Notes under the pieces: generated by a model | What the model saw: the letters and a program-made list of their open reading frames with translations, nothing else | Databases searched by the model: none | Told to the model about the DNA's origin: nothing | Translations under genes and position numbers: made by a program | Shown here: piece by piece, positions 16,936 through 63,080 of the stretch | Position numbering within the stretch: position 1 is the first letter of the stretch | How the letters are laid out: each line of letters begins with the position of its first letter | Origin: Bacillus sp. F19 | GTDB taxonomy: Bacteria > Bacillota > Bacilli > Bacillales > Bacillaceae | Assembly (NCBI GenBank): GCA_023823795.1 | Contig: CP085710.1 | Span: 1,452,001-1,516,000 of the forward strand | Reading direction: 5' to 3' | DNA: 64,000 nt

Positions 16936-16973
16936 GGGGTACAGTCCCGAAAATGCGGATTTACAACGATAAG
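16936..16973 (+). repeat. Solo Tn3-type 38-bp terminal repeat
   Basis: Starts GGGGTACAGTCC and ends ACGATAAG, exactly 38 bp, the length and end structure of Tn3-family inverted repeats. No transposase gene is adjacent. Confidence 0.65.
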
Positions 16974-17001
16974 AGCTGACCGAAAAAACAACACGAAATA
17001 T

Positions 17002-17039
17002 GGGGTCCAGACAGCAAAACGCGGTAAACGTACGCGAAA
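17002..17039 (+). repeat. Solo Tn3-type terminal repeat, decayed inner end
   Basis: Starts GGGGTCCAGACA and is almost identical over 34 bp to the repeat at 18,641, but the inner end reads TACGCGAAA instead of TACGCTAAG. Same orientation as the repeat 66 bases upstream. Confidence 0.6.
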
Positions 17040-17108
17040 ATGGGGAAGAGCGTCTGAATTTATTTTAAAGAATTCGGCCTAAAGTCAATTTTAAGAAGTT
17101 AGACAAAA

Positions 17109-17139
17109 AGCCAAACCCAGTATTATCAAGGGTTTGGCT
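17109..17139 (-). terminator. Terminator-like hairpin
   Basis: AGCCAAACCC pairs with GGGTTTGGCT (10 bp), with a T-run on the minus-strand side. Just upstream on that strand (17,190-17,260) a decayed frame ends in KDKEIAELKKKIQQLEKR, the C-terminal coiled coil of a lost gene. Nothing else is supported in 17,040-17,371. Confidence 0.6.
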
Positions 17140-17371
17140 CTCAGTCGTTTTTTATCGATTATGCATGATTTTATACATCGTTGATTTATCAACGTTTTTC
17201 CAGTTGTTGAATTTTTTTCTTTAATTCGGCTATTTCCTTATCCTTATCAGTAATTGATTATTACCTATCCCTTTTGAAGCCATTTCTTGATGTAATAACA
17301 CGTGTTTAGCCAAAAGAAAAGCCCCCGACTAGTCTGGGACTTCCTTTCAGTGATTCATATAAATCAAGTTT

Positions 17372-17962
17372 CTATCTTGGTTTTGATTCCACAACATCTC
17401 CATTTTGATACACATCATAGAATCCGACCGTTCCAGTACCTCCGCCATCAATTAAATCTTGACTTTGTGCTTTCAAAGAATAAAATACTTTTCCATCTGA
17501 GTCCTTATGAAGCACACCATCGCTACTAAACACTAGATCATCATTATCTAGGGCTTCCTCTGCATAAGTAATCGCTTTTTCTACTGGAAATATGACTTCT
17601 TGGTGTTCATTGAACATAGCAGTCCATGTCTCCACACCAACAATTCCATCAACAGCTAATCCATGCTCGGACTGGAACTGGCGCACTTGTTCATCTGTTT
17701 GCGCTCCGAACAGTCCATCCACTTCGGTTTCAAAACCAGAATGGTTTAACGTTACTTGAACGAATTCAACCTCTATACCTGCACTTCCTTGCTGCAAGGT
17801 AGGCTGGTGTTCAGGTGCTACATTCAAAATGGGTTCAAGCTCAGGTGGTAACTCTGACATTTGAACCGATTCATTTTCTGAGGATGCGTCTGCGGTTTGA
17901 AAGGGAAGTGGCGAGGCCACAAGTGCAATCGCGGATATTGCTACTAACCATTTTTTTTTCAT
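17372..17962 (-). CDS. Secreted peptidoglycan-binding-domain protein
   Basis: This 196-residue protein has a signal peptide (cleavage near TADA) and, at about residues 58-115, a PG_binding_1 domain (GIEVEFVQVTLNHSG ... GLFGAQTDEQVRQFQ ... GIVGVETW). The C-terminal part is an unrecognised domain with a FYDVYQNGDVVESKP end. AAGGAGGAGA precedes the ATG at 17962. It probably binds cell wall or cortex. Confidence 0.8.
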   Translation of the reverse strand: MKKKWLVAISAIALVASPLPFQTADASSENESVQMSELPPELEPILNVAPEHQPTLQQGSAGIEVEFVQVTLNHSGFETEVDGLFGAQTDEQVRQFQSEHGLAVDGIVGVETWTAMFNEHQEVIFPVEKAITYAEEALDNDDLVFSSDGVLHKDSDGKVFYSLKAQSQDLIDGGGTGTVGFYDVYQNGDVVESKPR

Positions 17963-18052
17963 CAAACTCTCCTCCTTGACAAGGTGAGTATAAAGGAAAT
18001 AATTTCCAATAACAATAGACCTTTCTTACTAATTTTGGTATTTTTCCTTATA

Positions 18053-18076
18053 GGGGTCCAGACATGACACTACCCC
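18053..18076. repeat. Two 12-bp transposon tips fused head to head
   Basis: GGGGTCCAGACA is followed directly by TGACACTACCCC, the reverse complement of a GGGGTAGTGTCA tip. Each half equals the outermost 12 bp of a Tn3-type terminal repeat, with nothing in between. Confidence 0.6.
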
Positions 18077-18135
18077 TTAATTAACAAATGCCTGAGTTAC
18101 TTCATACAATATTCAAAAAAATGGAGTTGATCTTC

Positions 18136-18471
18136 ATGGCGAGACGGATTGACGTATCTACATCAAAACATCAATTAAAACTTTTTGATGGAAACAGGCT
18201 TATAAAAGCTTACCCAATTGCAGTTGGGAAAATATTGTCACCAACACCTTCTGGGACATACACGATTATCAATAAACAACTCCATCCACCCGCACGATTT
18301 GGAGTGCTTTGGATGGGATTGTCAAAACCTCATTACGGTATACACGGAACAAATAACCCAGCTTCAATCGGTAAGAATGTCTCACATGGATGTATTAGAA
18401 TGTTTAATCATGATGTTCTAGAATTATCATCTAGAGTTCCAATTGGTACTAGGGTTTCTATTCATAAATGA
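18136..18471 (+). CDS. Short L,D-transpeptidase (YkuD domain)
   Basis: This 111-residue protein is a bare YkuD domain. The active-site signature is complete: His70 (YGIHGTNNP) and SHGCIR with Ser83, Cys86 and Arg88. There is no signal peptide or LysM domain, as in several Bacillus L,D-transpeptidases thought to act late in sporulation. I chose the ATG at 18136, spaced nine bases from TGGAG, rather than an ATG at 18088 with no ribosome site. It makes 3-3 crosslinks in peptidoglycan. Confidence 0.85.
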
Positions 18472-18529
18472 CTCTGTTAATCTTGTACCCTTTACTACAT
18501 AGTTTGTGTCTAATGTGTAGCTTCATCAG

Positions 18530-18640
18530 CTTTTACCGAAAAAACGAGAGAAAAATCCCTTGTTCTCCTTTTTCGGCTCTTGCTCTTGAGTTGCAGCGAT
18601 CATTTTTTGATTATCCTCCTCTTGGTCAATAAACCAATTA
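18530..18640 (-). pseudogene. C-terminal remnant with GFFSRFFGK tail, cut by a mini Tn3 element
   Basis: On the minus strand, reading from 18640, the frame gives NWFIDQEEDNQKMIAATQEQ and then a Lys/Glu-rich stretch ending in KGFFSRFFGKS and a stop. The mini element at 18,641-18,877 interrupts its 5' side; LQVTQIAKDK at 18,878-18,910 may be the upstream part. The tail resembles that of the sulfotransferase at 22.8 kb and of plasmid MerR/DUF3967-like proteins. Confidence 0.5.
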
Positions 18641-18877
18641 GGGGTCCAGACAGAAAAACGCGGTAAACGTACGCTAAGAGTTGTGTTGCATTAATTTTTT
18701 TGTATTTCAGGTAAATTGTGTTGCGTAAAAGCGATAAATGGCACTTTTTCAGCTATTTAATGCAACATAATTGTATTTATGTTGTATAGAATGAACAGCC
18801 TTAGCGTATAAAAAAGCCTTTGTTTTAGGTATTTTAATCCTTAGCGTACGAAATCTGCGCTTTGCTGGCGGTACCCC
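18641..18877. mobile_element. 237-bp miniature Tn3-derived element
   Basis: A 38-bp repeat starting GGGGTCCAGACA and ending ACGCTAAG (18,641-18,678) faces its partner at 18,840-18,877, whose reverse complement starts GGGGTACCGCCAGC and also ends ACGCTAAG. Both ends have the Tn3/Tn4430 design. The flanks AATTA and ATTTA are a 4/5 match for a 5-bp target duplication. The interior has inverted copies of TGTTGCATTAA and a GCAACATAATTG motif, resembling a recombinase resolution site. No gene is inside. Confidence 0.65.
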
Positions 18878-18968
18878 ATTTATCTTTTGCGATTTGTGTG
18901 ACTTGAAGTTGGAAATTCAGATGTATATCATATACAAACCTACTTAACATAATGAAACTTATCGGCAT

Positions 18969-19003
18969 TAAAAAAGGATCTTTGATTAAAGATCCTTTTT
19001 TAA
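18969..19003 (-). terminator. Terminator of the 333-aa membrane protein gene
   Basis: Near-perfect hairpin AAAAAAGGATCTTT / AAAGATCCTTTTTT, T-rich on both strands. It lies just beyond the gene's stop. Confidence 0.85.
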
Positions 19004-19021
19004 TGTGCCTATAAAGATTAT

Positions 19022-20023
19022 TTAAACTTTTCCACACTTTGAACATTTACCCCTGGTTTGCTTTTGATAATTCAAAGTAGCTCCAGTAATCGCTATACCC
19101 AGCAACAACCATCCTCCATATACCATAGATACTAGCAAACCTGTGTCATCGAAATTCATTGGCCCATCGGCAAGACCTAATACCTCCATAAGAGATCCCA
19201 ATATTGCCAAAAATCCCATTGAAACTGTCATGGATGCAGTAACCCAACCTCCGGTGATTAGAATGAATCGAGGAACTTTTTTCCCAGAAATAAATGGTAC
19301 CCAGCTAGGAAAAATACGCCCCCATTTTTGTACAAGAGCAAGACAAAGTAGTGCACAAACGCCAAATACTATTATTTCTCCATAAGCAGAATGTTGATTG
19401 AAATTTTGGCCACCTCCTAGGGTTCCACCGAAGGACCAATAAAGTTTTAATAAAGGATATGGAAAAGTTAGTATAAATGCAGCATAGCCGAACCATTTAT
19501 GGTCAGGTTGGATTTTCACCGAAGGACCTTGACCACATACAATACATGCCCCTCGGGATATACGTTGAAAAGAGATGGTCGCTGTAGCAAGCAGTATGGC
19601 AGCTATGAGACTAATCGTTCTGGTTGCGAACCCTGGCCAATCTACGACAGGTGGCAAGCCTGGTATTCCAAGTACAGCAGCTGTTCGCAAAGTGTCAAAC
19701 ACAATACCACCTGAAGACCAGACTAATAAAAAACAAGTTCCCCATGTGCTAATTAGCAAAAGAAAACGTGGAATTAAACTTTCACGCTGCCAGTTAATAG
19801 ATAGTGCCATTGTAATCATTCCCAAGATTGAAGCAAATACCGTAATTTCTACTGGAGCAAATCCTATTGTGTAATCCGGTGCTTCAGGAAAAAAGGATTT
19901 CAATATAATTAAGAATAGTGTGATAGAACATGCTCCAATTGCAGTCCAAGCTTTAATATTCGATTGAACAATCTTGGTTTTACCGTTCACTTTGGTAATT
20001 TCTCCTCGATCGAGATTAATCAT
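19022..20023 (-). CDS. Polytopic membrane protein with CxxC motifs
   Basis: This 333-residue protein has about eight to nine hydrophobic segments. Two cysteine pairs stand out: CIVCGQ in a loop in mid-protein (about residue 175) and CSKCGK at the very C-terminus. Both look like half zinc ribbons that could bind one metal together. An AGGTG site precedes the ATG. I do not recognise the family and can only say it is an integral membrane protein, perhaps a transporter or sensor. Confidence 0.65.
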   Translation of the reverse strand: MINLDRGEITKVNGKTKIVQSNIKAWTAIGACSITLFLIILKSFFPEAPDYTIGFAPVEITVFASILGMITMALSINWQRESLIPRFLLLISTWGTCFLLVWSSGGIVFDTLRTAAVLGIPGLPPVVDWPGFATRTISLIAAILLATATISFQRISRGACIVCGQGPSVKIQPDHKWFGYAAFILTFPYPLLKLYWSFGGTLGGGQNFNQHSAYGEIIVFGVCALLCLALVQKWGRIFPSWVPFISGKKVPRFILITGGWVTASMTVSMGFLAILGSLMEVLGLADGPMNFDDTGLLVSMVYGGWLLLGIAITGATLNYQKQTRGKCSKCGKV

Positions 20024-20348
20024 TAATGAAACACCTCATTTTATCTTTCAAGACTGTTACCAATCTTTTGCTTTTACCAAATTCCTTTACTTCTCAGTTA
20101 AAGTTTATATAAACATTTCATTTGTTAACACAGTCTCAGGAAGTAATTTCCAATACATCTGTGGTCTTAATTGGCTTTAATAACTATTAGTAATGAGAAG
20201 AAAACATTGGATGACTACCGTTCTCTTTTTATTCTATGCATACTTTATACAAATCTAGTTTACATAAAGTACGTTATAGGTAATAAAAAAGGATCTTCGG
20301 TTTGGTCTTACCCCCGTCAAGTAGACATTTAATTAAAAGGTGCACTTA

Positions 20349-31229: not shown

Positions 31230-32010
31230 AAACCAGGACAAACATGCGAAATATCCGACGCTTATGTAGGAATGACTGATAAAGTACCAACTCGTGTGAT
31301 TGTTCATCGGCTAACAAAAGAACAACAACAAAAACGATTACAAGATCAAACTGTAAGAGAAAAAAAGAAAGGAATGAAGTATTCTCCTCGTAGTAAACGA
31401 CTCAGTGGTATCAATGTATATATGACAAACACTCCTACAGATATTGTCCCGATGGGACAAGTACATAATTGGTACTCTTTACGTTGGCAAATCGAAATTT
31501 TATTTAAAACGTGGAAATCATTCTTTCAAATTCATCAGTGTAAAAAGATAAAACCAGAAAGATGGGAGTGCCATTTGTATGGACAATTGATTGCCATTCT
31601 ACTCTGTTCTTCTATCATGTTTCAAATGCGGCAATTACTTCTTATGAAAAAGAAACGAGAACTGAGTGAGTATAAGGCCATATATATGATTAAAGATTAT
31701 TTTCTTCTTCTTTTCCAAGCTATACAGAAAGACACACCCAAGAGCTATCAAAGGTTCTACTTCGCCTGTTCAACCTCCTACAGCAAAACGGGCGAAAATC
31801 TCATCGATATGAGAAGAAAACAGTCTTTGATATATTAGGTGTCGTTTACAATTGTACCATGTCTGATAATCAAGCGGCTTAATTCAAAAAAGGAAACCCG
31901 TTAGGGTTTATTTCGTATGCAAATCTTTAAAGCATCTACATATAGACTTTCAAAAAAAGAAACAATCTTGCTTATCATTGACGTTACATGAGGTTAGCTT
32001 GATAGCGATG
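31230..32010 (+). pseudogene. IS231-type transposase C-terminal fragment and right end, copy 1
   Basis: The frame [20 protein letters not shown] through [20 protein letters not shown] (YREK region) is the C-terminal third of an IS231 transposase. A 2-bp insertion near 31,733 shifts the frame relative to copy 2. The non-coding right end follows and finishes with TTGATAGCGATG at 32,010. The N-terminal two-thirds are missing. Confidence 0.8.
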
Positions 32011-32022
32011 TGGTACTACCCC
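32011..32022 (-). repeat. 12-bp transposon tip at the IS231 end
   Basis: TGGTACTACCCC immediately follows the IS231 right end. It is identical to the outer 12 bp of the right terminal repeat of the element at 48,146-50,050, so the IS had inserted at the tip of such an element. Confidence 0.6.
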
Positions 32023-32291: not shown

Positions 32292-33899
32292 TTGGATTAC
32301 GAAAAATGGTTGAAAGAACTTAGTTCTAAAAAATTGAGTCGACGAACCTTTTTGGGAACATCTGGTAAAACAGCTTTAGCTACAACACTTGGCCTTACTA
32401 TCCCTTATTCATTGGCAAGTAAGGGTGTGGAAGCTTCATTCACATTTAATGACTATCCATTTACCCTAGGAGTCGCATCCGGTGATCCGTTACCAGATGG
32501 AGTTGTATTGTGGACAAGATTAGCTCCTAATCCTACTGCCGCAGATGGATTAGGTGGTATGATGGATAAAAATATTCTCGTTGAGTGGGAAATGGCGGAA
32601 GATGAAAAGTTTAATAAGATAGTAAGACACGGAACAGAAGTAGCGGTGCCTGAGCTTGCACATTCTGTCCATGCAGAAGTATATGGACTGAAACCCGGAC
32701 GCGAGTATTATTATCGATTTAAAGCTGGAAACGAGATAAGTCCCGTTGGAAGAACGAAAACGGCTCCTGCATGGGGGACGCACTTAAGCAGTCTTTCATT
32801 TGCCTTTGCCTCTTGTCAGGCATGGGTGGGGGGACGTTATGCTGCCTATCGTGATATGGCGCAGCAAGATCTCGATTTGGTTCTTCATCTTGGGGATTAT
32901 ATCTATGAGAAAAGGGACACTGCAACTCTTGCTGATTTCCGTAATCAACACGCCCTTTACAAAACTTCTCCAGACTTACAAGCTGCCCACGCGGCGTTCC
33001 CATTTATCGTGACCTTCGATGATCACGAGATAGAGAATAACTGGGCGAATGATATTTCACAACCGGATGGGGAAGAATCCAACCAAAACTTTCTTGCACT
33101 TCGTGCTGCAGCGTTCCAGGCATATTACGAGCATTTGCCACTAAGGCTTCGATCAAAACCGCATGGTTCTGATATGAATCTCTACCGTCAATTCATTTAT
33201 GGTAATTTAGCCGAGTTTAACGTCTTAGATACACGCCAATTTCGTGATGACCAATTAATCGACGGAGTTACGTATGCTCCTCTTCACCCTGACGCATCGA
33301 ATCCTTCAAGAACTATGATGGGCTCTAAACAGGAACAGTGGCTATTAAAGAATCTTGAACACTCGAAGGCACGTTGGAACGTGATTGCCCAGCAAACCAT
33401 TATGGCTCAGTTTGACTATGACCCTGGATCAGGTATAAGTGTCAATCATGACCAGTGGGATGGTTACGCTGCTGAACGGGACCGTGTTTTGAAGTTTATT
33501 CAACAACATCGTCCTTCCAATCCGGTTATCCTTGCTGGGGACTGGCATTCAAGCTGGGTAAACGACTTAAAGGCTGATTTTAGCAATCCTCATTCAGAGA
33601 CCCTGGCAACAGAGTTCGTCGGAACTTCGATCAGTTCAGGATGCGGATGGAAAGGAAATGTTGAAGCAGCACTTTCTGTGAATCCACATGTTAAGTTCTT
33701 TAATGGCGACTTGCGTGGGTACGTACGCTGTGACGTGACACACGATTCATGGAAAAGTGACTACCGTGTGGTTTCTTTTCCTGATGATGCTAATGCACAA
33801 GCTTTTACATTGACATCTTGGGTTGTTGAGAACGGAAAACCAGGTGCAACTGAAATCGGAATGACCAACTATAATAAAGTTGGAGTAACAGCGTATTAA
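32292..33899 (+). CDS. phoD: Tat-exported PhoD-like phosphodiesterase/alkaline phosphatase (copy 1)
   Basis: This 535-residue protein begins with a twin-arginine signal (SRRTFLG, residues about 16-22) and a hydrophobic stretch. Its catalytic domain shows the PhoD metal motifs: ASCQ, LHLGDYIYE, DDHEIENNW, TRQFRDD and LAGDWHSSW. PhoD proteins use Fe/Ca to cleave phosphodiesters, in Bacillus including wall teichoic acid. GGAGTGG precedes the TTG start. A TTAACA motif near 32,257 is only a weak PhoP-box candidate. It is paralogous to the gene at 42.9 kb. Confidence 0.9.
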   Translation: MDYEKWLKELSSKKLSRRTFLGTSGKTALATTLGLTIPYSLASKGVEASFTFNDYPFTLGVASGDPLPDGVVLWTRLAPNPTAADGLGGMMDKNILVEWEMAEDEKFNKIVRHGTEVAVPELAHSVHAEVYGLKPGREYYYRFKAGNEISPVGRTKTAPAWGTHLSSLSFAFASCQAWVGGRYAAYRDMAQQDLDLVLHLGDYIYEKRDTATLADFRNQHALYKTSPDLQAAHAAFPFIVTFDDHEIENNWANDISQPDGEESNQNFLALRAAAFQAYYEHLPLRLRSKPHGSDMNLYRQFIYGNLAEFNVLDTRQFRDDQLIDGVTYAPLHPDASNPSRTMMGSKQEQWLLKNLEHSKARWNVIAQQTIMAQFDYDPGSGISVNHDQWDGYAAERDRVLKFIQQHRPSNPVILAGDWHSSWVNDLKADFSNPHSETLATEFVGTSISSGCGWKGNVEAALSVNPHVKFFNGDLRGYVRCDVTHDSWKSDYRVVSFPDDANAQAFTLTSWVVENGKPGATEIGMTNYNKVGVTAY

Positions 33900-34061: not shown

Positions 34062-34090
34062 GGGGTACCGCCACATCGCTATCAAGCTAG
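34062..34090 (+). repeat. Tn4430-type tip joined to an IS231 left end
   Basis: GGGGTACCGCCA (34,062-34,073) is followed by CATCGCTATCAAGCTAG, the inverted counterpart of the IS231 right ends at 32,010, 48,068 and 59,778. No transposase follows; the phosphorus genes do. A long perfect stem (AAGCGGCCTTGTTA with its partner) at 34,137-34,177 lies just downstream. Confidence 0.65.
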
Positions 34091-42767: not shown

Positions 42768-42872
42768 TTATTGGTCCAGAACGAAATTAATACAGGATAG
42801 GGGGAATTTCGACACTGGTGATTTGTAACAGAAATGTTTGAATATATGATTGTTAAGGGAGAGAACAACAGG

Positions 42873-44522
42873 ATGGATAAGGAAAAAGAAATAAAAGAAT
42901 TAATCAGCTCGTTGCATATCGAGAAATCAAAGCTTGAAAAGATGGACCGGCGTTATTTTCTTCAGGCTAGTAGTAAGGTTGCAGCACTCACAGTTGGCTT
43001 GACTATTGCTAATTCGTTATTTGGTAATAGCACTCAAGCGGCAGAACCGGAGTTTAACTCGTATCCGTTTACCCTTGGAGTTGCATCCGGGGATCCATTG
43101 CCAGATGGAGTGGTACTTTGGACTAGAATTGCACCCGATCCGCTGAATGGGGGTGGAATGAAAGCATATGATGTCCCCGTAAGATGGGAGGTTTCTGCTG
43201 ACGAAGGATTCCGCCAAATCGTAAAGCATGGAGTAGAGTTTGCAAGACACCAGTTGGGACATTCGGTGCATGTTGAAGTCGAAGGTCTAGATCCAAATTC
43301 GATTTATTACTATCGCTTTAAAGTCGGATCGGATATGAGCCCTGTAGGTCGTACAAAAACATTACCTGCCTTTAATACCGATGTTTCCAGGATGACGTTT
43401 GCCTTTGCATCTTGTCAGAACTGGCAAATTGGATATTATACCGCCTTTAAACATATGGCACAGGAAGATCTCGATTTGGTCATCCATCTTGGCGACTACA
43501 TTTATGAGGGTGGGATCAGTAATGATGGTGTTCGTCCGCATAACAGTGACGAGATTAGAACACTAGAAGATTATCGGAACCGATACGCCCTTTACAAAAG
43601 TGATACGAATTTGCAGGCAGCCCATGCAGCATTTCCTTGGGTAGTCACAATGGATGACCATGAAGTGGATAATAACTTTGCCGGTCTGATTCCAAGTACT
43701 TATGAACCAGTGGAGCAGTTTATAAAGCGGCGTGCAGATGCCTACCAAGCCTATTATGAACATATGCCCCTGAGGCGTTCATCCTTGCCAGATGGAGAGG
43801 GGATGCAATTATATAGAAGGCTTGCTGTTGGTCATTTAGTCGATTTTCATGTTCTTGATACTCGCCAATATCGAGATGATCAAGCAAATGGAGACGGTAG
43901 AGATGAACCAAATGCTGAATCAATGGATCCGAACCGTTCCCTTACTGGGGACGAACAGGAGAGATGGATCCTTGATGGTCTTAGTCAGTCAAAAACTCGC
44001 TGGCATGTTCTTGCTCAACAGGTATTTTTTGCAGAGAGGGACTTCAAGGATGGGGAAGGCGAGGAAGTTAGTATGGATGCATGGGATGGATATTCCGCAA
44101 ATCGCGAACGTATACTAAACTTCATTAAAGACAATGGGATTTCCAATTTTGTTGTGCTGACTGGTGATGTGCACAACAGCTGGGCGAATGAAATCAAAAG
44201 TGATTTCAAGGATCAGAACTCAGCAAATCTAGGAGTTGAGTTTGTCGGAACGTCGATTTCTTCAGGAGGAGACGGCTCAGATATTAACAATACAACTCCG
44301 GTGATCCTTGCTGAGAATCCGCATATTAAATTTTTTAACAATTACCGCGGTTATGTACGTTGCACGGTAACTCCTGAAACTTGGACTACTGATTACCGAG
44401 TTGTACCCTATGTTAGACGTCCTGATGCACCGATTGCAACACGGGCAACGTTTATCGTGGAAAATGGAAAGAACGAATTGAAGAAGATTTATGATGTACC
44501 TCTCACTGTTACATCTCAATAA
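42873..44522 (+). CDS. phoD: Tat-exported PhoD-like phosphodiesterase/alkaline phosphatase (copy 2)
   Basis: This 549-residue paralogue of the 32.3-kb gene has a twin-arginine region (DRRYFLQ, residues about 25-31) and the same metal motifs: ASCQN, IHLGDYIYEGG, DDHEVDNNF, TRQYRDD and TGDVHNSWANE. The ATG at 42873, preceded by AAGGGAGAG, gives an N-terminus aligned with copy 1. An upstream ATG at 42834 would add 13 residues. PhoP-box repeats lie upstream. Its 3' 250 bp are duplicated at 63.2 kb. Confidence 0.9.
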   Translation: MDKEKEIKELISSLHIEKSKLEKMDRRYFLQASSKVAALTVGLTIANSLFGNSTQAAEPEFNSYPFTLGVASGDPLPDGVVLWTRIAPDPLNGGGMKAYDVPVRWEVSADEGFRQIVKHGVEFARHQLGHSVHVEVEGLDPNSIYYYRFKVGSDMSPVGRTKTLPAFNTDVSRMTFAFASCQNWQIGYYTAFKHMAQEDLDLVIHLGDYIYEGGISNDGVRPHNSDEIRTLEDYRNRYALYKSDTNLQAAHAAFPWVVTMDDHEVDNNFAGLIPSTYEPVEQFIKRRADAYQAYYEHMPLRRSSLPDGEGMQLYRRLAVGHLVDFHVLDTRQYRDDQANGDGRDEPNAESMDPNRSLTGDEQERWILDGLSQSKTRWHVLAQQVFFAERDFKDGEGEEVSMDAWDGYSANRERILNFIKDNGISNFVVLTGDVHNSWANEIKSDFKDQNSANLGVEFVGTSISSGGDGSDINNTTPVILAENPHIKFFNNYRGYVRCTVTPETWTTDYRVVPYVRRPDAPIATRATFIVENGKNELKKIYDVPLTVTSQ

Positions 44523-45495: not shown

Positions 45496-45634
45496 GGGGT
45501 ACCGCCACATGCCCATCAAGCTAATATTTTGGAGTAACCCAAAACGAAAATTTTATCTCTCCACAGTTGTCTATGAGGATTCAGCTCATTTTTTCGTTTT
45601 GGGGAACAATGAATTTCTTAACTTGATGGCAATG
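45496..45634. mobile_element. 127-bp IS231-derived mini element at a Tn4430-type tip
   Basis: GGGGTACCGCCA is followed by CATGCCCATCAAGCTAA; the other end at 45,634 has reverse complement CATTGCCATCAAGTTAA. These are IS231-type ends. Inside, CCAAAACGAAAA and TTTTCGTTTTGG form another inverted pair. No gene fits. The right flank keeps CACCAGCATTAGCG, like the inner part of a Tn4430-type repeat. 45,635-45,782 shows nothing else. Confidence 0.6.
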
Positions 45635-46243: not shown

Positions 46244-46281
46244 GGGGTCCAGACAGCAAAACGCGGATTTACAACGTTAAG
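46244..46281 (+). repeat. Solo Tn3-type 38-bp terminal repeat
   Basis: Starts GGGGTCCAGACAGCAAAACG and ends ACAACGTTAAG, exactly 38 bp. It combines the outer half of the 17.0-kb repeat with the inner half of the 48.1-kb repeat. Confidence 0.65.
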
Positions 46282-46520
46282 GATATTCCAGCATTAAAAA
46301 TCCCAATCTATCAGTTATATAAATGAGAAATTGGGATTTAATTATTCAACAATTGCGCCCGTTAATTGAATAACACATGAGCTTCTATTAGCTGGTATAG
46401 CCATCCATGGCACATAAATGCGGTACCATCAAATAAATGAAAATTTTAATTTTCAGGATAGATAAACATGAAATTAAACGACACTATTATTTTTGAAATA
46501 ACTTTATTGTTACTCAACAT

Positions 46521-46997
46521 TTAACATACATCGCAACTTGGCACATTATCTTCTGATATCCAGTCATAGTCTCTTTTTGGTGGGCAAGGTGTTCCAAAGG
46601 AAACACACTCAGTAGCTGGAGTACCATACACTCTATGTTTGTATACACAACACTTCCAAGCAGGGGCATAGGGATAAGGGTAGTAAAATTGATAATAAGG
46701 AATATGGTCACCACCATGATTACCTCCTTTATAGCCTGGATAGAATGGAAGCATTTCATTTCCTACCTCCTGCCCACCCATATAATATGATTGTAGTACC
46801 GGTGGTGGTTCAGGCCCTGAATAATTTGGACAATGGTTGCAATAAGAAACAGGATATTTTCTCCAAAGTCTGTAACCTTGCCATATCGGTGGACAATCAC
46901 CGTCAAAGCATCTTCTATAAAAATAAACCTGTGGGGTCTCCGGGGATTTTCGCAGATAAATACCACAACACATCGCGCTGCCGTAAGAATAATACAT
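46521..46997 (-). CDS. Cys/Tyr/Pro-rich protein, possible spore-surface protein
   Basis: This 158-residue protein contains 13 cysteines and many Tyr, Pro and Gly (for example YYQFYYPYPYAPAWKCC). It has no signal peptide or known catalytic motif. I chose the ATG at 46997; an upstream in-frame start at 47033 lacks a good ribosome site. Together with the 93-residue gene it suggests disulfide-crosslinked coat material. Function is inferred only from composition and the sporulating host. Confidence 0.5.
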   Translation of the reverse strand: MYYSYGSAMCCGIYLRKSPETPQVYFYRRCFDGDCPPIWQGYRLWRKYPVSYCNHCPNYSGPEPPPVLQSYYMGGQEVGNEMLPFYPGYKGGNHGGDHIPYYQFYYPYPYAPAWKCCVYKHRVYGTPATECVSFGTPCPPKRDYDWISEDNVPSCDVC

Positions 46998-47076
46998 ACT
47001 CAACACTTCTTTCCTAAAATGTAAACAACACAATAACTATATATTCCTGAACTCAGTATTAGGAGCTTTGTCCTAA

Positions 47077-47365
47077 AATTAACGTAAATTCCCATTGTGA
47101 TTATGTGTGTTATTCCATTGATATGAACGAAACTGTCAACCCACCACACATCATGTGGGGGACTGTGAGCACCTTCAAATGTTGTTATCTGCACGGTAAC
47201 ATTAAATAAGTAACTGCCTTGTGGCAGCTTCTTAATTTGGGTTATATTACCGCAATAATTTTGTTTAATTTCACCATATTGCTTCTTCAATTCCTGTTGA
47301 ATTGAGGGATAAAGCAAAATGAAAATCAAGTCATCACGCAACTGTATATCATTTTTAGTTGCGGT
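47077..47365 (-). pseudogene. DUF3888-like secreted protein, 5'-truncated
   Basis: The minus-strand frame [19 protein letters not shown] with KLPQGSYLFNVTVQITTFEG and AHSPP is typical of DUF3888 proteins. The start and signal peptide are missing because an IS231 fragment abuts at 47,366. The C-terminal end also seems altered and the frame runs to 47,000. Confidence 0.55.
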
Positions 47366-48068
47366 TGTTCATCGGCTAACAAAAGAACAACAACAAAAAC
47401 GATTACAAGATCAAACTGTAAGAGAAAAAAAGAAAGGAATGAAGTATTCTCCTCGTAGTAAACGACTCAGTGGTATCAATGTATATATGACAAACACTCC
47501 TACAGATATTGTCCCGATGGGACAAGTACATGATTGGTACTCTTTACGTTGGCAAATCGAAATTTTATTTAAAACGTGGAAATCATTCTTTCAAATTCAT
47601 CAGTGTAAAAAGATAAAACCAGAAAGATGGGAGTGCCATTTGTATGGACAATTGATTGCCATTCTACTCTGTTCTTCTATCATGTTTCAAATGCGGCAAT
47701 TTATGAAAAAGAAACGAGAACTGAGTGAGTATAAGGCCATATATATGGTTAAAGATTATTTTCTTCTTCTTTTCCAAGCTATACAGAAAGACACCCAAGA
47801 GCTATCAAAGGTTCTACTTCGCCTGTTCAACCTCCTACAGCAAAACGGGCGAAAATCTCATCGATATGAGAAGAAAACAGTCTTTGATATATTAGGTGTC
47901 GTTTACAATTGTACCATGTCTGATAATCAAGCGGCTTAATTCAAAAAAGGAAACACGTTAGGGTTTATTTCGTATGCAAATCTTTAAAGCATCTACATAT
48001 AGACTTTCGAAAAAAAGAAACAATCTTGCTTATCATTGACGTTACATGAGCTTAGCTTGATAGCGATG
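47366..48068 (+). pseudogene. IS231-type transposase C-terminal fragment and right end, copy 2
   Basis: About 98% identical to 31,305-32,010. This copy keeps the correct C-terminus ([20 protein letters not shown] ... MSDNQAA), but has lost 6 bp near 47,700 and everything 5' of the VVHRL codons. It ends TTGATAGCGATG. Confidence 0.82.
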
Positions 48069-48105
48069 GGGTTTCACCAGCAAAACGCAGATTTACAACG
48101 TTAAG
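48068..48105 (+). repeat. Tn3-type 38-bp terminal repeat next to the IS231 end
   Basis: Starts GGGGTTTCACCAGC (first G shared with the IS end) and ends ACAACGTTAAG. With the inward-facing repeat at 50,151-50,186 it may bracket an older mini element into which the 1.9-kb element was inserted. Confidence 0.6.
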
Positions 48106-48348
48106 GAGATTCAGTCAATCAAATTGCCTTTTTTCACAACGTTAAGGGGTAATACCAGCGTCCGTGACACCAGGGCAAACGTCTGTAATAAATCGGAAAT
48201 ACATATCAAGAAGTTCTAATATGTTGGCCAGGATCTGCTTCTTGGAGAGATCGGCTTTAGGCTCCTCTGCCGCGCATGCATAAGCGCCGTTAGAATAAGG
48301 CAAACTATCCCCAACCAGCGCCAATTATCGTGCAAAGGGGCAATAGTT

Positions 48349-49404
48349 ATGACGGTTAAGATGATCGCAAAGTGGGATGGGAACAGCTTTCTAAAGGTCC
48401 TCGATGCAGCCGGAAAAGAGACAAAGCTGCCGCAATATCTGAAAGTCGATCACACAGGTACAACTAACGGAAGAGATTATTTCACTGTGCTTGAAGGACG
48501 GGCAAAGGATCAAAAATACAGCGTCGATTCTCAGGCTAAAGCGCTCGGCCCTGTGACTAGCTATAAACCCTCAGAAGTTTTGAAATTCCACCCAGCGAAA
48601 AATTTGCTCCGCATCCCGCACCAGGTCGAGTATGAAGCGGAAACCGATCCATATAATCCTATTCCTGAGGGGAATCATTGTATACAGGTCGTGGATACTG
48701 ATCATAAAAACAATTATCCTGAAGCCGGTCCGTATCAATTTTCCTGGTTTCCAATCGGTTTGGAAGGAGCACGCTATCTTCATCCTGGAACAGTTTCTGC
48801 GGGTTGCCTTACCGTAACTGACCTCACAAAATGGAATGACATCTACGATTTTTTGATCAACCGACGCAAGAACAATGATTGCGTGAGTATGCTGCAGGTT
48901 TGTCCTCCCGACGCAGAGGATTGGTGCAGGTTATTTAACGGCAAATACCAAATTACTGTTGATGGTGTAGCGTATGCTTGGGGCATACTGAACTTAAACT
49001 TTTCGAAAGGCGCAGACAACTGGCTCAATGTTGTGGGCACAACAGACAATCATCGCTACACCTTCCGTGGTGCTTTTGCACTCACCAAAGATGCACCGGT
49101 AGCCCATTCCTTCGGCCCTCAAGATGGAGGCATCATGGAAGGCAGGCTGACAGATAACCAGCCAAGCTCGCACTGGCCGCGTGAATGTGATCTGCGCGTG
49201 GGATGCTGGGAACTCAATTTCCAACCGGGTCTCATGATTCCGGTGCAAATTCAATGGAAAGGAACTATCGCACAAGGATACTGGAATCACGGTGCTCCTC
49301 ACAGACTTGAATTGAAGGCGCTAGAACTGAGAAAGCGCCCCTGGTACAACTATCCATGGAACTATCCGGTCTGGAGCCCATATCCGCCACCACTGCCAGT
49401 TTAG
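48349..49404 (+). CDS. L,D-transpeptidase-like protein carried by the mini transposon
   Basis: This 351-residue protein has an LDT-like active-site motif, YLHPGTVSAGCLTV, with His145, Ser150 and Cys153, preceded by IPEGNHCIQVVD. No signal peptide is evident. The C-terminal half (about 200-320) is a separate beta-rich region, and the tail is Pro/Trp/Tyr-rich (YPWNYPVWSPYPPPLP). Base composition near 50% GC is clearly higher than in flanking DNA. Assignment to the YkuD superfamily is by motif only; the usual HGC is GxVSAGC here. Confidence 0.5.
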   Translation: MTVKMIAKWDGNSFLKVLDAAGKETKLPQYLKVDHTGTTNGRDYFTVLEGRAKDQKYSVDSQAKALGPVTSYKPSEVLKFHPAKNLLRIPHQVEYEAETDPYNPIPEGNHCIQVVDTDHKNNYPEAGPYQFSWFPIGLEGARYLHPGTVSAGCLTVTDLTKWNDIYDFLINRRKNNDCVSMLQVCPPDAEDWCRLFNGKYQITVDGVAYAWGILNLNFSKGADNWLNVVGTTDNHRYTFRGAFALTKDAPVAHSFGPQDGGIMEGRLTDNQPSSHWPRECDLRVGCWELNFQPGLMIPVQIQWKGTIAQGYWNHGAPHRLELKALELRKRPWYNYPWNYPVWSPYPPPLPV

Positions 49405-49458
49405 ATTCACGTTCCAATAAATGACAAGGACAATACCCTTGCACAAGGAGATGGGAAA

Positions 49459-49707
49459 ATGACAGAGAAAAAGGAAGAAATCAACAAAGAGCTCAGCGAG
49501 AGAGACAGAGATACTCGGCCAGCCGAGCAAGGTGGAAGCGGAAACGAAGCAAAAAACGAGGCTGGCACTAAGGACCGCGAGAACTTTTCCTCACTTTACG
49601 GAGAGAAGAGCACTGGACCCAGCGAGAAAACGACTGATACTCAGAACGGAGAGAAGAGCACTGGACCCAGCGGAAAAACGAGTGATACTCAGAGCAACGA
49701 AAAATGA
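49459..49707 (+). CDS. Small low-complexity protein with a tandem 16-residue repeat
   Basis: This 82-residue hydrophilic protein has AAGGAGATGG before the ATG. Its C-terminus is two copies of GEKSTGPSxKTxDTQ encoded by tandem 48-bp DNA repeats (49,601-49,648 and 49,649-49,696). It is predicted to be disordered. It lies 55 bases after the L,D-transpeptidase-like gene, probably in the same transcript. Function unknown. Confidence 0.5.
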   Translation: MTEKKEEINKELSERDRDTRPAEQGGSGNEAKNEAGTKDRENFSSLYGEKSTGPSEKTTDTQNGEKSTGPSGKTSDTQSNEK

Positions 49708-49873
49708 TACGTTTTGAGTGACGCTTGACCAAGCTCCGCAGCTAGATTGCTCAAACCAAAAACAAGCCTTCGAAGGGCGAGCCCCAGCAAGTCTCTCAAA
49801 TATCTCGCGCCCAATGGGATTCAGACTCCATTGACCAAGCATATACGGCGCGGCAACTTCCGCCAACAAATGT

Positions 49874-49910
49874 CTTAGCGTGGGTAACGTCATTTGGTTG
49901 GCGGTACCCT
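49874..49910 (-). repeat. Tn4430-like terminal repeat inside the mini transposon
   Basis: The reverse complement starts AGGGTACCGCCAACC and ends CCCACGCTAAG (37 bp). It has no matching partner in the element. Confidence 0.55.
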
Positions 49911-50150
49911 AAATTCAAACAATCAGGTGGAAAAGAGCATTGTGCGGCTTCATTTTATTCCGATACTCACCGTTTTCGGAACTATCAGCAAGATTGCTCC
50001 ATTATTTTACAAACGTTTGCGGGTGGTGACAGCTACGCTGGTACTACCCCGTTAAGGATGTCCAATGTCAAAAAGCAAGCTTTATGACATAGTGGGATGG
50101 CTCTAATTCGCATGTCAAAAGGCTAATTTTCAAAAATGATTTTCCTTATC

Positions 50151-50186
50151 CTTAGCGTTTTTTCGCGTTTTGGTTGGCGCTACCCC
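50151..50186 (-). repeat. Tn3-type terminal repeat (36 bp)
   Basis: The reverse complement starts GGGGTAGCGCCAACC and ends ACGCTAAG. It faces the repeat at 48,068 and would close a roughly 210-bp mini element if the 1.9-kb insertion is ignored. ATGTCAAAAAGC with an inverted partner lies between, possibly a resolution site. No gene is seen in 50,187-50,419. Confidence 0.55.
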
Positions 50187-56666: not shown

Positions 56667-56775
56667 GGGGTACAGACACACCGCCGTCAAGCTAACAAGA
56701 ATGAGATGGGCATGGGGTAGCGTCAGGAAAATGCGGATTTACAACGTTAAATATATATTTTCCTGACGCTACCCC
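56667..56775. repeat. Fused transposon scars: tip, 36-bp IS231 remnant and palindromic Tn3 end
   Basis: GGGGTACAGACA (56,667) is followed by CACCGCCGTCAAGCTAA and, 19 bases later, GATGGGCATG, so only the two ends of an IS231-like element remain (36 bp). Next comes a 38-bp Tn3-type repeat (56,714-56,751) whose first 18 bp are repeated inverted at 56,758-56,775 (TTTTCCTGACGCTACCCC). Confidence 0.65.
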
Positions 56776-58798: not shown

Positions 58799-58923
58799 AT
58801 GAGCCTTATAGCTTCAACATGAGATTCATCTATATGCTAGAGAGTTGCAGAATTATAATATGGGCGAGTATTCTGCTCCCTCGTTTTAAATGGGAAAAAC
58901 GAGACAAGGGGTTCCTTGTGATA

Positions 58924-59589: not shown

Positions 59590-59653
59590 AAGGGCCATAT
59601 TCTGGAGTAAAAAAAGGCAATTAGGTGGTTCATCTCGAAATGGTATGTTATTC
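59590..59653 (+). repeat. Interspersed repeat (copy 3 of 3)
   Basis: Same block as at 57,533 but joined at its right end to TTATTCCATTGATATGAACG, which also occurs at 47,111, and then to an IS231 right end. The junctions show repeated recombination. The minus-strand frame at 59,382-59,633 runs into this repeat and is not called. Confidence 0.75.
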
Positions 59654-59664
59654 CATTGATATGA

Positions 59665-59790
59665 ACGTTAGGGTTTATTTCGTATGCAAATCTTTAAAGC
59701 ATCTACATATAGACTTTCGAAAAAAAGAAAAAATCTTGCTTATCATTGACGTTACATGAGCTTAGCTTGATAGCGATGTGGCGGTACCCC
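59665..59790 (+). repeat. IS231 right end inserted at a Tn4430-type tip
   Basis: From GTTAGGGTTTATTTCGTATG to TTGATAGCGATG (59,778) the sequence matches the right ends at 32.0 and 48.0 kb without any transposase codons. TGGCGGTACCCC follows, the tip of a Tn4430-type right end. Confidence 0.75.
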
Positions 59791-59886
59791 TATAAGGAAG
59801 GAAATATGACTGTAAATCAAATTTGTGAAATTACAAATGTGTATAGAGCTTCATTATATAGAAAGCTATCAGAAGGGAACAAATAG
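59791..59886 (+). pseudogene. Resolvase C-terminal HTH fragment
   Basis: The frame YKEGNMTVNQICEITNVYRA then SLYRKLSEGNK and stop is the DNA-binding end of a serine resolvase. It begins exactly at the transposon tip. The catalytic part is missing. No gene is seen in 59,887-60,016. Confidence 0.7.
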
Positions 59887-60016
59887 TCTTTCTTTATTCC
59901 ATTTAAACCAATTGTTCATTCCAAAAAAAATAATTACAAAGTTGGTATGATTTGTTAAGATGAATGCGAAAGATGCTGTCGTCACTGAATGAAGAACATT
60001 TGGGAGGGGATTAACA

Positions 60017-60559
60017 ATGAATGAGACCAAACCGTTAAAAGAGTTTCTTCAGGAAAGGAAAGAAAGTAGCATTGCCACGATCGCTCAGTACATTGAGGAC
60101 CATATCGCGGAAAACTGGCAAAGCCTCTTCGAGAATAACCGGGATAAGTTGATGCAAGCATATAATGAGGCAGGCGATAGGGCGTACGGGACGTATTTAC
60201 ATCTGCTGTTTTTATCTGTTCATAAAGAGCTTAATAAGGCAGGATTGCGTGCGGAACCTAGATTGCCAGGCGATTTCGGCATTTCAAGAGAGTGGGGCAA
60301 CATGGAAGACAGACAACGTTGGATGTGGAGCACCATTTTTTCTATGAATGAAGAGCCTTTAGGTACCTTAGTCACTATTGTGTTTCATGATCACACGCAG
60401 TTTCGGGTTCCCCGTCAGCCTGAAATCATCGCTTTACTCGAAACGCACAAGGAGGATGTCGTTGAGGCCCTCTCTTTCCGTTCCATTGACTTCAAGCAGG
60501 CGCGTGAATTCAAGATTGAATACGAAGAATACGTGCAGAATCAGCATAACAAAGGCTGA
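60017..60559 (+). CDS. Hypothetical cytoplasmic protein
   Basis: This 180-residue protein has GGGAGGGG before the ATG and an ordinary soluble composition with Glu/Arg-rich helices. Motifs that stand out are WQSLFENNRDKLMQAYNEAG and GISREWGNMEDRQRWMWS. I do not recognise the family. Codon use is less AT-rich than in most accessory genes here, hinting at a different origin. Confidence 0.5.
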   Translation: MNETKPLKEFLQERKESSIATIAQYIEDHIAENWQSLFENNRDKLMQAYNEAGDRAYGTYLHLLFLSVHKELNKAGLRAEPRLPGDFGISREWGNMEDRQRWMWSTIFSMNEEPLGTLVTIVFHDHTQFRVPRQPEIIALLETHKEDVVEALSFRSIDFKQAREFKIEYEEYVQNQHNKG

Positions 60560-60831
60560 AGAACCAAAGGGTTACGGCTTATAGAGTTCTCAGTCTATAA
60601 AAATAGAAGCAGCAATTAACCCTATGAGCCTTCTATTGTATGAAATTAAAATACGAACGAAAAAAGCAGCCGTCAGCTGTCGATCGGACTTCAAAACCGA
60701 ACAATAAGGGTGATTTCCTCTGGCTTTTCGGATTTTTGGGCGGACTACCTATCTGCTTTTGTTACGACTATAAATAAATTCGACAATATCGAGAAATGTT
60801 ATGAGATAAAAAAATGGAAGGAGAGGAATTT

Positions 60832-61329
60832 ATGGTCAAACAACTGATCGTCGGCGATGCAACGCATGAACTGGCCACTACGCGCCGCATTCTGGGACGC
60901 TTGCCCGAGGAGCATATGTCGTGGAAGCCGCACGAGAAATCGATGACGCTCGGCGGGCTGGCCACGCACCTGATCAACCTGCTGAACTGGCAAATCGCGA
61001 TTTTTCAGTACCCGGAGTTCGATCTTTCGACCGTGCCGTTGCGGCGGGAGCCTTTGGAAAAACGCGCTGACGTTCTGGAGGAGTTCGACGTGAACGTCGA
61101 CAAGTTTGAAAAGCTGCTCGCCGAATGCGACGAGAAAACGCTCGGCGAGGAATGGACGCTGCGCCACGGCAACCATATCATCCTCCGCGAGCCGCGGGCG
61201 ATCGCGCTCCGCACCTTCGGATTAAGCCACATGGTCCACCACCGGGCGCAGCTCGGGGTATACTTGCGGCTTCTCGATATTCCGGTGCCGGGCATCTACG
61301 GTCCCTCGGCCGACGAGGAAGCCCAATGA
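60832..61329 (+). CDS. DinB/DfsB-type four-helix metalloprotein
   Basis: This 165-residue protein fits the DinB fold: a His in helix 2 (GGLATHLINLLNW, His46) and the C-terminal SHMVHHRAQLGVYLR segment with two more potential ligands. AAGGAGAGG precedes the ATG at 60832. GC content is about 60%, far above the flanks, so it was probably acquired from a GC-richer Firmicute such as a paenibacillus. Members are thiol transferases or detoxification enzymes. 61,330-61,632 holds a GC-rich stretch without a supported gene. Confidence 0.8.
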   Translation: MVKQLIVGDATHELATTRRILGRLPEEHMSWKPHEKSMTLGGLATHLINLLNWQIAIFQYPEFDLSTVPLRREPLEKRADVLEEFDVNVDKFEKLLAECDEKTLGEEWTLRHGNHIILREPRAIALRTFGLSHMVHHRAQLGVYLRLLDIPVPGIYGPSADEEAQ

Positions 61330-61632
61330 ACTAAGTTTCTCGATCCGATACGCGCCAAAAAGGTCGTAGGGCACCGGCATGAACGCCTGTACTCTGCGAC
61401 TGTTTTTATTGTCGTCGAATACTGCTTTTGTAATCCATCCTTTGTCAAAATAACACCTAAAGTGACACATCCGGATTTAAAAGTTCTTTTTTTTGTTCAT
61501 TTTGAGTATACTTTTACGAACTTTTTTGATTGTTACTTTCTTTAAAATAGACTCTGTTAAACAATGCTTTTGATTTTTCTTCTTACTAATGAAAAAACGC
61601 TAGTTCACATAATCAGATATTATCGGTATTAA

Positions 61633-61660
61633 AAAAGGATCTTCAAACGAAGATCCTTTT
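61633..61660 (+). terminator. Intrinsic terminator
   Basis: AAAAGGATCTTC-AAAC-GAAGATCCTTTT, perfect 12-bp stem. It has the same stem as the terminator split by the IS3 element at 20.3 kb. Confidence 0.85.
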
Positions 61661-61768
61661 CTACTGCTTATTGACTAAAGATTAGCTTTAGGTAGCTTTT
61701 GTCATAATATACGATTATTTACAAAGAATATATCTATCAGAAAAAATATTCTTTGGAGGTAACTAATT

Positions 61769-62791
61769 ATGACCGAAAACCGTACAAAACTAACCTCAGC
61801 CGAAATAGGCGCAATTTGGACTGCTTACATGAATGATAGTATGTCCAAGTGCATGTTAGGTTATTTTCTTAAAGATGTAGAGGATCAAGAAATTCGTTCT
61901 ATTATCCAACAAGCCTATGACCTTTCATCTACCCACATCGAAAAACTTACTTATTTGTTTCAAGAAGAACAACTCCCATTACCTACAGCATTTTCAAGTG
62001 AAGATGTGAATATGAATGCTCCTCGCTTATATACTGATACGTTTATGCTTGAATATATTGGCCACATATCGAGAGCTGGTTTACTTGCATATGGTGGCTA
62101 CGTTGCAATGAGTGCTAGAAAAGACATAAGAGCCTATTTTATGGAGGGGCTTACAGAAGTATCTAACTTATACGACACTGGTGCGGATGTATCTCTTTCA
62201 AAAGGATTATTTGTTAGAGCACCTTATATCGCTTATCCAACTAAAACAGACTTTATAGACAGCAAAAATTATTTTAGTGGGTTAAATCCATTTACCAACA
62301 AAAGACCACTAAATACAATAGAGATATCTTACTTACATATGAATACCCAAACCAACGTTATAGGAGGAAGCTTGGCACTTAGTTTTGCTCAAACATCCTC
62401 GAGTGAAAATATTCAAAAATGGATGTTAAGAGGAAGAGATATTACAAAAAAACATGTTCAAGTCTTTACAAAGATGCTTATTGATAACGATATACAACCA
62501 CCTCTTTCGTCAGAAGTTGCTATTACTGATTCAACAACACCGCCTTTTTCAGATAAATTAACAATGTTTTTTATGTCATTGTTAAGTGCCATTGGAACAG
62601 GTAATTATGCAACGGCAGCAGCCGCAAGTCAGCGAAATGATTTAGCCATAAATTACGAACGTCTATCACTTGAAATCGCTCAATATGCGAAGGATGGTCT
62701 CGATATCATGATTAGTAATGAATGGATCGAACAACCACCTGGAACGATGGATAAAGAGAAACTTGCAAGAAATAAGAACCAAAATAGTTAA
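61769..62791 (+). CDS. DUF3231 protein (two ferritin-like bundles)
   Basis: This 340-residue protein has the DUF3231 signatures LTSAEIGAIWTAYMNDSMSK, DVNMNAPRLYTDTFMLEYI and a second, related half with STTPPFSDKLTMFF. Each half looks like a ferritin-like four-helix bundle. These proteins are typical of spore-forming Bacillaceae and may be membrane or spore associated; their function is unknown. TTTGGAGG precedes the ATG. Confidence 0.85.
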   Translation: MTENRTKLTSAEIGAIWTAYMNDSMSKCMLGYFLKDVEDQEIRSIIQQAYDLSSTHIEKLTYLFQEEQLPLPTAFSSEDVNMNAPRLYTDTFMLEYIGHISRAGLLAYGGYVAMSARKDIRAYFMEGLTEVSNLYDTGADVSLSKGLFVRAPYIAYPTKTDFIDSKNYFSGLNPFTNKRPLNTIEISYLHMNTQTNVIGGSLALSFAQTSSSENIQKWMLRGRDITKKHVQVFTKMLIDNDIQPPLSSEVAITDSTTPPFSDKLTMFFMSLLSAIGTGNYATAAAASQRNDLAINYERLSLEIAQYAKDGLDIMISNEWIEQPPGTMDKEKLARNKNQNS

Positions 62792-62828
62792 AATTTATTA
62801 GATTGGTTAACCAGTAGGAAGTGGATAA

Positions 62829-63055
62829 ATGTCAAAGGAAGGACGAATGGAGAAAGTCCTTTGGAGTATTGCATTACCTGGCTTTGGACAAATTTTAAAT
62901 GGTAAGTTTCTCAAAGGACTACTTTTGATACTATTAGAATTTTTAGTTAACGTTCAATCAAATTTCAATAAAGTGATTATGTATAGCTTTCAAGGTGAAA
63001 TTCAAGCAGCTATTGACCATGTTAACTATCAATGGCTTATGTTTTATCCCTGTCT
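62829..63055 (+). pseudogene. YvlA-like small membrane protein truncated at a transposon tip
   Basis: The frame KEGRMEKVLWSIALPGFGQI ... GKFLKGLLLILLEFLVNVQS ... YQWLMFYPCL is the N-terminal two-thirds of a small membrane protein. It stops matching exactly where GGGGTACCGCCA begins (63,056); the annotated stop is in transposon sequence. Confidence 0.65.
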
Positions 63056-63080
63056 GGGGTACCGCCAATGTCTGAACCCC
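63056..63080. repeat. Head-to-head fused transposon tips
   Basis: GGGGTACCGCCA is followed, after one base, by TGTCTGAACCCC (reverse complement GGGGTTCAGACA). It has the same architecture as at 18,053. Confidence 0.6.

Follow-up and report, generated by a model that had tools for sequence, protein, structure and literature searches.

The stretch analysed here (the window) is 64,000 nucleotides of the chromosome of Bacillus sp. F19, positions 1,452,001 to 1,516,000 of contig CP085710.1 (G000:C1:1452001-1516000), and it carries a cluster of 38-bp terminal repeats of the Tn3 transposon family. Some of these ends bound complete non-autonomous elements, including a 237-bp Tn3-derived inverted-repeat miniature element (TIME), and others abut termini of an IS231-like insertion sequence (IS). 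The genome (G000) is 5.59 Mb in two contigs, C1 and C2; the comparison set is 61 genomes, this one included.

The Cluster of Tn3-Family Ends

Ends were scored with a profile, R1, of 38 positions trained on 20 ends from the same genome, five of them from the window; the window was searched with filters off. Ten significant Tn3-family ends were found there (E 2.9e-11 to 0.0023): 46244 (plus), 18840-18877 (minus), 56714 (plus), 48068 (plus), 16936 (plus), 18641 (plus), 17002 (plus), 50151-50186 (minus), 11372-11406 (minus) and 49874-49910 (minus). These include all nine repeats listed in the initial annotation, each real and correctly placed; 11372-11406 had been left out, and the range given, up to 63080, has no significant end near that limit (best R1 E 2). 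Enrichment over shuffled sequence, a check named beforehand, was borne out: a strict end pattern has seven matches in the window and none in any of 100 dinucleotide shuffles, and genome-wide it has 28 matches against one for the reversed pattern.

R1 matches number 30 at E<0.001 and 42 at E<=1 in the genome; 11 partial or weak matches among the 42 were excluded, leaving 31 ends. At that density 0.35 ends are expected per 64 kb and the window holds 10 of the 31, therefore it is a cluster of ends. Chance similarity was rejected on the profile E values, the pattern counts against reversed and shuffled controls, and this expected density. Ends at E<=0.01 occur in 27 of the 61 genomes, most abundantly in G006 (43), the present genome (30) and G002 (14). 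Tn3 transposase domains are present in 12 of the 61; when the two lists are compared, 17 of the 27 end-bearing genomes have no Tn3 transposase domain found and two genomes have a domain with no end. The ends are presumably akin to those of Tn4430; the label Tn1546-type, used below, refers to the end sequence of that transposon.

Complete and Nested Elements

18641-18877, plus strand: complete TIME (Tn3-derived miniature inverted-repeat transposable element, MITE), 237 bp, with ends 18641-18678 (plus) and 18840-18877 (minus) and four TnpI-type motifs in the core
18680-18786, no strand: predicted TnpI recombination site (irs), comprising DR, DR, then an IR1-IR2 core, with spacing 35/47/14
48068-50186, plus strand: interrupted TIME with R1-type ends 48068-48105 (plus) and 50151-50186 (minus), about 209 bp without a 1905-bp insert
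48146-50050, plus strand: complete non-autonomous Tn3-type element, 1905 bp, with inverted ends of a second type (GGGGTARTACCAGCGT...)
48349-49404, plus strand: cargo open reading frame (ORF), 351 aa, inside the 1905-bp element
49874-49910, minus strand: low-scoring, degenerate end of the 38-bp type within the 1905-bp element (R1 E 0.0023)

The 237-bp element is geneless, its inverted ends score E 1.7e-8 and 6.5e-11 with R1, and its flanks, AATTA and ATTTA, match at four of five bases. It has three full-length relatives in G006 (237, 237 and 238 bp; 72-73% identity), and it is through these that the element is seen to be dispersed; the two 237-bp copies are identical, share a 49-kb contig and differ in their flanks, and the 238-bp copy is on another contig. 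Traces in its own genome are partial, with 95% identity over 37 bp at 17002 and 97% over 58 bp at C1:2321965-2322022. Judged by its sequence, 18641-18877 is a complete TIME for which mobility in trans is predicted. The initial annotation had called the ends solitary, which holds for several without a partner (16936, 17002, 11372 and 46244); 18641 and 18877, however, are the two ends of this one element, and 48068 and 50186 bracket a second.

The core of the 237-bp TIME contains the motif RCAACACAAT (two mismatches at most) at element positions 40 (minus), 75 (minus), 122 (plus) and 136 (minus); there are two further weak matches in the window copy. A Tn4430-like transposon in G006, whose ends match those of a TIME copy at up to 97% over 38 bp and which encodes a tyrosine recombinase (tnpI, 310 aa) and a tnpA in two frames, carries the same motif upstream of the recombinase gene at 156 (plus), 170 (minus), 218 (plus) and 254 (plus). 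Order and spacing agree between the two: 14; 47 or 48; 35 or 36. None of 20000 shuffles gave this layout; the geometry tested was taken from the TIME itself, therefore the independent support for the irs comes from its agreement with the G006 transposon. The core thus has what is read as the layout of a TnpI irs, and recombination by TnpI is predicted.

The 1905-bp element, a complete element with another end type that the initial annotation had missed, is flanked on both sides by an exact 5-bp duplication, GTTAA, and is inserted into the TIME of about 209 bp. Its end sequence has partial matches in 20 plasmid records, 13 of them from Paenibacillus or Priestia; four of the 20 match over at least 80% of the 97-base end query. 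In Priestia megaterium pPmC-129-6 a similar end lies 12 bp from a Tn3-family transposase gene; of four plasmid records inspected, three of them from among the 20, one has such a gene beside the end and the other three have none. An assignment of these ends to the Tn5401 type was dropped: the Priestia match has its tnpA beside a 'recombinase family protein' gene, and no Tn5401 sequence was compared. Searches of Pfam, NCBIfam and PDB gave nothing for the 351-aa cargo ORF, which has one distant plasmid match; it contains HPGTVSAGC, which resembles the YkuD active-site motif.

The End Module

46244-46370, plus strand: end module, a 38-bp end plus hairpin, conserved over about 127 bp and followed by variable DNA
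46521-47033, minus strand: Cys-rich ORF, 170 aa, in the variable DNA behind the module

The end at 46244 had been taken for a bare relic; it is instead the end of a repeated module of about 127 bp that stands beside varied genes. By eye, its hairpin looks like a terminator. The module occurs in five places in the genome (46244, C1:1211266, C1:3165749, C1:4221293 and C2:14165), and these are five of the ten copies aligned; three G006 copies also share the 127 bp or so, and two further copies (G002, and C3 of G006) diverge earlier. Neighbouring ORFs, classified by eye, are alcohol-dehydrogenase-like, oxidoreductase-like and PepSY-like. Two of the G006 copies (L068 and L069) adjoin a spore-germination-permease-like ORF, also by eye; they have both Tn3 ends, measure 1785 and 1818 bp, and lie in two places.

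A separate repeat was observed: a motif resembling repetitive extragenic palindromes, GCGCCCGATTGTTGAAGATC, found at 59 places genome-wide (three mismatches at most) against none for the reversed pattern. Its window sites are 21646, 21749, 22433, 30584 and 50263; some copies carry an inverted TTCAACAAT-like arm, and one lies at the inner border of a 46244-type module, at C1:1211377.

An IS231-Subgroup Insertion Sequence at the Tips

31272-32022, plus strand: 3' portion of an IS231-subgroup IS; its terminus is 31994-32009, followed by a tip-only relic, 32010-32022
34062-34090, no strand: tip relic and IS231-like terminus (4 mismatches)
45496-45633, no strand: tip relic and 125-bp mini-element with IS231-like ends (mini-element 45509-45633)
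47319-48067, plus strand: 3' part of an IS231-subgroup IS, an IS4-family transposase fragment whose terminus 48052-48067 (3 mismatches) abuts the end at 48068; the left limit is approximate
56680-56713, no strand: IS231-like IS remnant, 34 bp, with tips on both sides (GGGGTACAGACAC / GGGGTAGCGTCAG)
59762-59790, plus strand: IS231-like terminus (3 mismatches) and tip relic

IS231 has a target preference for the tips of Tn4430. The outer flank of several ends is TTAGCTTGATGGGCAT, which is the terminus of an IS4-family IS; this IS occupies the outer tip of such ends and is accompanied by an 11-bp duplication (GGGTNNNNNCCA). Its transposase matches NF033592 and has the YREK motif, Y-2-R-3-E-6-K at residue 342 (copy C1:3120.8-3122.2k). 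According to passages of PMC2266710, the IS231 subgroup has ends of the form CAT-------AA--TAA and direct repeats of 10-12 bp; the ends here, CATGCCCATCAAGCTAA, fit that form and the 11-bp repeat fits that length. On these sequence characters the IS at the Tn3 tips is placed in the IS231 subgroup of the IS4 family. This second mobile element had not been considered in the initial annotation; it explains the outer flanks at 48068 and 56714 as well as the tip-only relics elsewhere.

The genome has 36 such IS termini, against one for the reversed pattern, and 30 of the 36 were read. Of those read, 24 run on into a Tn3 tip, nine into GGGGT and 15 into an inverted tip, the latter under a loose rule that admits degenerate tips; among the six running into neither, tip-like sequence is absent from four, one of which resembles IS coding sequence. 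Conversely, eight of the 31 ends abut an IS terminus, seven with four mismatches or fewer and 56714 by the last 8 bases; among the 11 excluded matches, C1:1406456-1406486 also adjoins one. The four-mismatch rule is matched at 13 of 127,968 window positions, some being real termini: those at 31994, 34075, 45509, 45618, 48052, 56680 and 59762 (0 to 4 mismatches) are counted as such, and the other six look unrelated.

The IS copy at C1:1209628-1211265 lies between two identical 11-bp sequences. Segment 18070-18652, whose last bases are the tip of the 237-bp TIME, has a second copy at C1:4233844-4234426 (99.8% identity); there an IS231-like terminus follows the tip, so that the same tip occurs with and without the IS. 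At C2:14164, GGGTACCGCCA stands twice in exact tandem, the form that excision would leave; at C1:2341092 it stands twice with one extra A between. Mini-elements with IS231-like ends were also seen, one of 125 bp (45509-45633) and one of 117 bp (C1:3123980-3124096); both are possibly IS231-derived MITEs.

Mosaic Ends

It had been proposed that several repeats share halves, and the sharing is exact: 46244 is identical to 17002 over its first 23 bp and to 48068 over its last 15 bp. Within this one genome the tips ACCGCC and CCAGAC each occur with the inner halves ATTTACAACG and (A/T)AAACGTACG, giving all four combinations. When the 237-bp TIME is compared with its G006 relatives, the left and right tips are swapped and the core orientation is kept. 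The variable end positions, 6-11, fall within the IS231 duplication.

Transposase and Recombinase Partners

The initial annotation had reported no tnpA in the window and had advised a genome-wide search for one. The former is correct, as a PF01526 domain search gives two matches in the genome, both outside the window, and no tnpA remnants within it. The latter yielded a Tn3 element, C1:3115095-3120696, with a broken tnpA: two ends of the 56714 type surround a gene for a 191-aa serine recombinase, a pair of passenger genes (by eye, DJ-1/PfpI-like and WYL-like) and tnpA pieces. Against an intact homologue in G007, the pieces correspond to residues 2-409 and 524-980 on one strand and 412-543 on the opposite strand: an internal inversion has broken the gene. 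This resident transposon therefore falls short of a Tn1546-like element, taken as intact tnpA and tnpR between Tn1546-type ends, because its tnpA is broken. No intact tnpA was found in the genome: the two PF01526 matches lie in open frames of no more than 470 and 79 aa, the 79-aa frame holding the sole Tn3 domain found apart from that of the resident transposon. An autonomous resident partner was sought, and this broken copy is all that was found.

A TnpI-like tyrosine recombinase gene at C1:2737806-2738672 (305-aa open frame; 48% identical homologue) was not taken as the cognate TnpI, because its upstream repeats, direct repeats 36 bp apart, are different. The genome domain search placed no Tn3 transposase domain at this locus.

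Other Single Ends and Neighbouring Features

11372-11406, minus strand: degenerate Tn3 end (R1 E 0.00039) with conserved subterminal DNA
16936-16973, plus strand: solitary left end, of the type of a 239-bp TIME-like element in G011
17002-17038, plus strand: left end of the type found in the 237-bp TIME, truncated to 34-37 bp, 95% over 37 bp
18053-18076, no strand: pair of 12-bp tips in head-to-head orientation (GGGGTCCAGACA TGACACTACCCC) with nothing inserted between, a possible IS footprint
56714-56775, plus strand: end of the resident-transposon type with an inverted 19-bp tip, forming a 62-bp micro-palindrome (second tip E 0.022)

A palindrome of 60 bp, similar to 56714-56775 and likewise built from outer Tn3-end sequence, here two such parts, lies at G006:C2:237138-237197 (L067 339-398). 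Among the genes of the window, a YkuD L,D-transpeptidase gene (18088-18471) is duplicated with its flank in the repeat shared by 18070-18652 and C1:4233844-4234426 (99.8%); by eye, the latter copy lies after an ORF resembling major facilitator superfamily transporters. The window also has two PhoD-like phosphatase genes, 32292-33899 and 42834-44522, with a related stretch near C1:4242448.

Origin of the Ends

The region is considered, with good confidence, to be a nest of non-autonomous Tn3-family elements of Tn4430 and Tn1546 type, with no working transposase found in the genome and with IS231 layered on their tips. The elements would have moved by replicative transposition when a Tn4430- or Tn1546-like TnpA, possibly plasmid-borne, was available in trans, with a TnpI likewise acting in trans on the 237-bp TIME; partner ends may later have been lost through deletion and IS231 traffic, leaving single ends. 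The earlier proposal of miniature elements mobilised in trans thus keeps its place as the best source of ends, though it missed the IS231 layer and the paired elements. That proposal in its original form, a graveyard of solitary ends that miniature elements left without the involvement of any other mobile element, is very improbable: it suits 16936, 17002, 11372 and 46244, which have neither a partner nor an IS alongside, as well as the lack of an intact tnpA among the genome matches, but the window holds complete elements, 48068, 56714 and six more of the 31 ends abut IS231-like termini, and the solitary reading is contradicted for 18641, 18840-18877, 48068, 50151-50186 and 56714. It is also improbable that full Tn1546- or Tn4430-like transposons, rather than miniature elements, were once present here and left the ends behind through deletion; the resident transposon shares the 56714 end type and full transposons of both types exist in relatives, however the 237-bp form recurs in G006 with the same length and core, and the DNA beside the end module varies between copies and is not tnpA in those read.

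Several observations weigh against the favoured nest of non-autonomous elements with an IS231 layer. Exact 5-bp duplications were not seen, by eye, for the 237-bp TIME, its G006 copies or the other elements read alongside, therefore transposition is not proven individually for these elements. The suggestion to look for empty sites in relatives gave none for the 237-bp TIME among the 61 genomes, and the same set held neither a full-length relative nor an uninterrupted copy of the 209-bp TIME. Rossellomorea sp. BNER has a protein 98% identical to that encoded at 19022-20023, a match by which the host probably belongs to Rossellomorea (Bacillaceae); it offers no empty site because its alignment covers 18933-20269 only. 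One of the four irs motifs falls below the threshold in the two identical G006 copies of the 237-bp TIME, and the G006 irs used for comparison is itself a prediction. The weak end at 49874-49910 is not accounted for, some IS copies have differing tips on their two sides, and 23 of the 31 ends have no abutting IS terminus, therefore IS231 is not the explanation for all ends.

The mosaic halves may have arisen by exchange of tips between ends, either through IS231 traffic, in which the IS would insert, recombine and be excised, or through crossing-over between inverted ends. Convergence is the competing view: few tip and inner sequences would be tolerated by different TnpA proteins, so that combinations recur with no exchange. 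The ends are short and several of their inner positions are constrained in every R1 training copy, as this view would have it; against it stand all four tip and inner-half combinations within one genome and the tips swapped relative to G006 around cores of the same orientation, and we regard convergence as possible but doubtful. The narrower proposal that IS231 traffic itself re-tips Tn3 ends is rather unlikely as it stands. Since the IS inserts at GGGTNNNNNCCA directly behind a G, recombination between IS copies followed by excision could leave an end with a tip from a different transposon; the mismatched IS-side tips, the tandem 11-bp tip, the mosaic ends and the tips swapped against G006 are candidate intermediates.

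Relation to Known Systems and Significance

TIMEs of Pseudomonas and Enterobacteriaceae are described, in passages of PMC4133298 and PMC13367494, as short, geneless elements with 38-bp Tn3-type ends, some with a resolution site, that are mobilised in trans. The 237-bp TIME is like them in size, gene content and ends, and in its predicted mobilisation; its host, however, is a Bacillaceae chromosome, and whereas the published site-bearing elements covered in those passages (IS101 and TIME244) have sites related to the res of serine resolvases (PMC4133298, PMC13367494), its site has the layout of a TnpI irs. In the irs of Tn4430, the subsites IR1, IR2, DR1 and DR2 precede tnpI (PMC7157771); the TIME has this four-subsite layout in common with Tn4430 but neither tnpA nor tnpI. 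Tn1546 and the spoVA2mob Tn1546 elements of Bacillus have a transposase and resolvase layout (PMC5133452), which the resident transposon shares; it differs in its DJ-1/PfpI-like and WYL-like genes and broken tnpA.

The IS resembles IS231 and MIC231 in its ends, duplication length and YREK motif, as far as the relevant passages of PMC2266710 describe them. The same passages hold IS231 to be almost confined to the B. cereus group as of 2008 (PMC2266710); the IS here lies outside that group, with 24 of its 30 read termini at Tn3 tips. A structural association of IS231 with Tn4430 is named in the title of a 1987 paper cited in PMC6542083. TIMEs and this association being already known, the case is mostly a fresh example of a known process; the TnpI-type TIME and the mosaic tips are new as far as searched, and no TnpI-type TIME was described in the titles and abstract openings of the open-access literature on TnpI or Tn4430 and miniature elements.

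A TIME from Bacillaceae with a TnpI-type site widens the TIME class and would provide a small natural substrate for TnpI, the site being predicted. The layers seen here, of TIME, cargo element, IS in the tip and scar, illustrate the accumulation and decay of such elements and show routes by which single ends can originate, which matters when orphan ends in genomes are read as evidence of past transposons. If re-tipping is real, it would, together with the TIME carrying a TnpI site, make tips and resolution system exchangeable modules among non-autonomous cargo elements.

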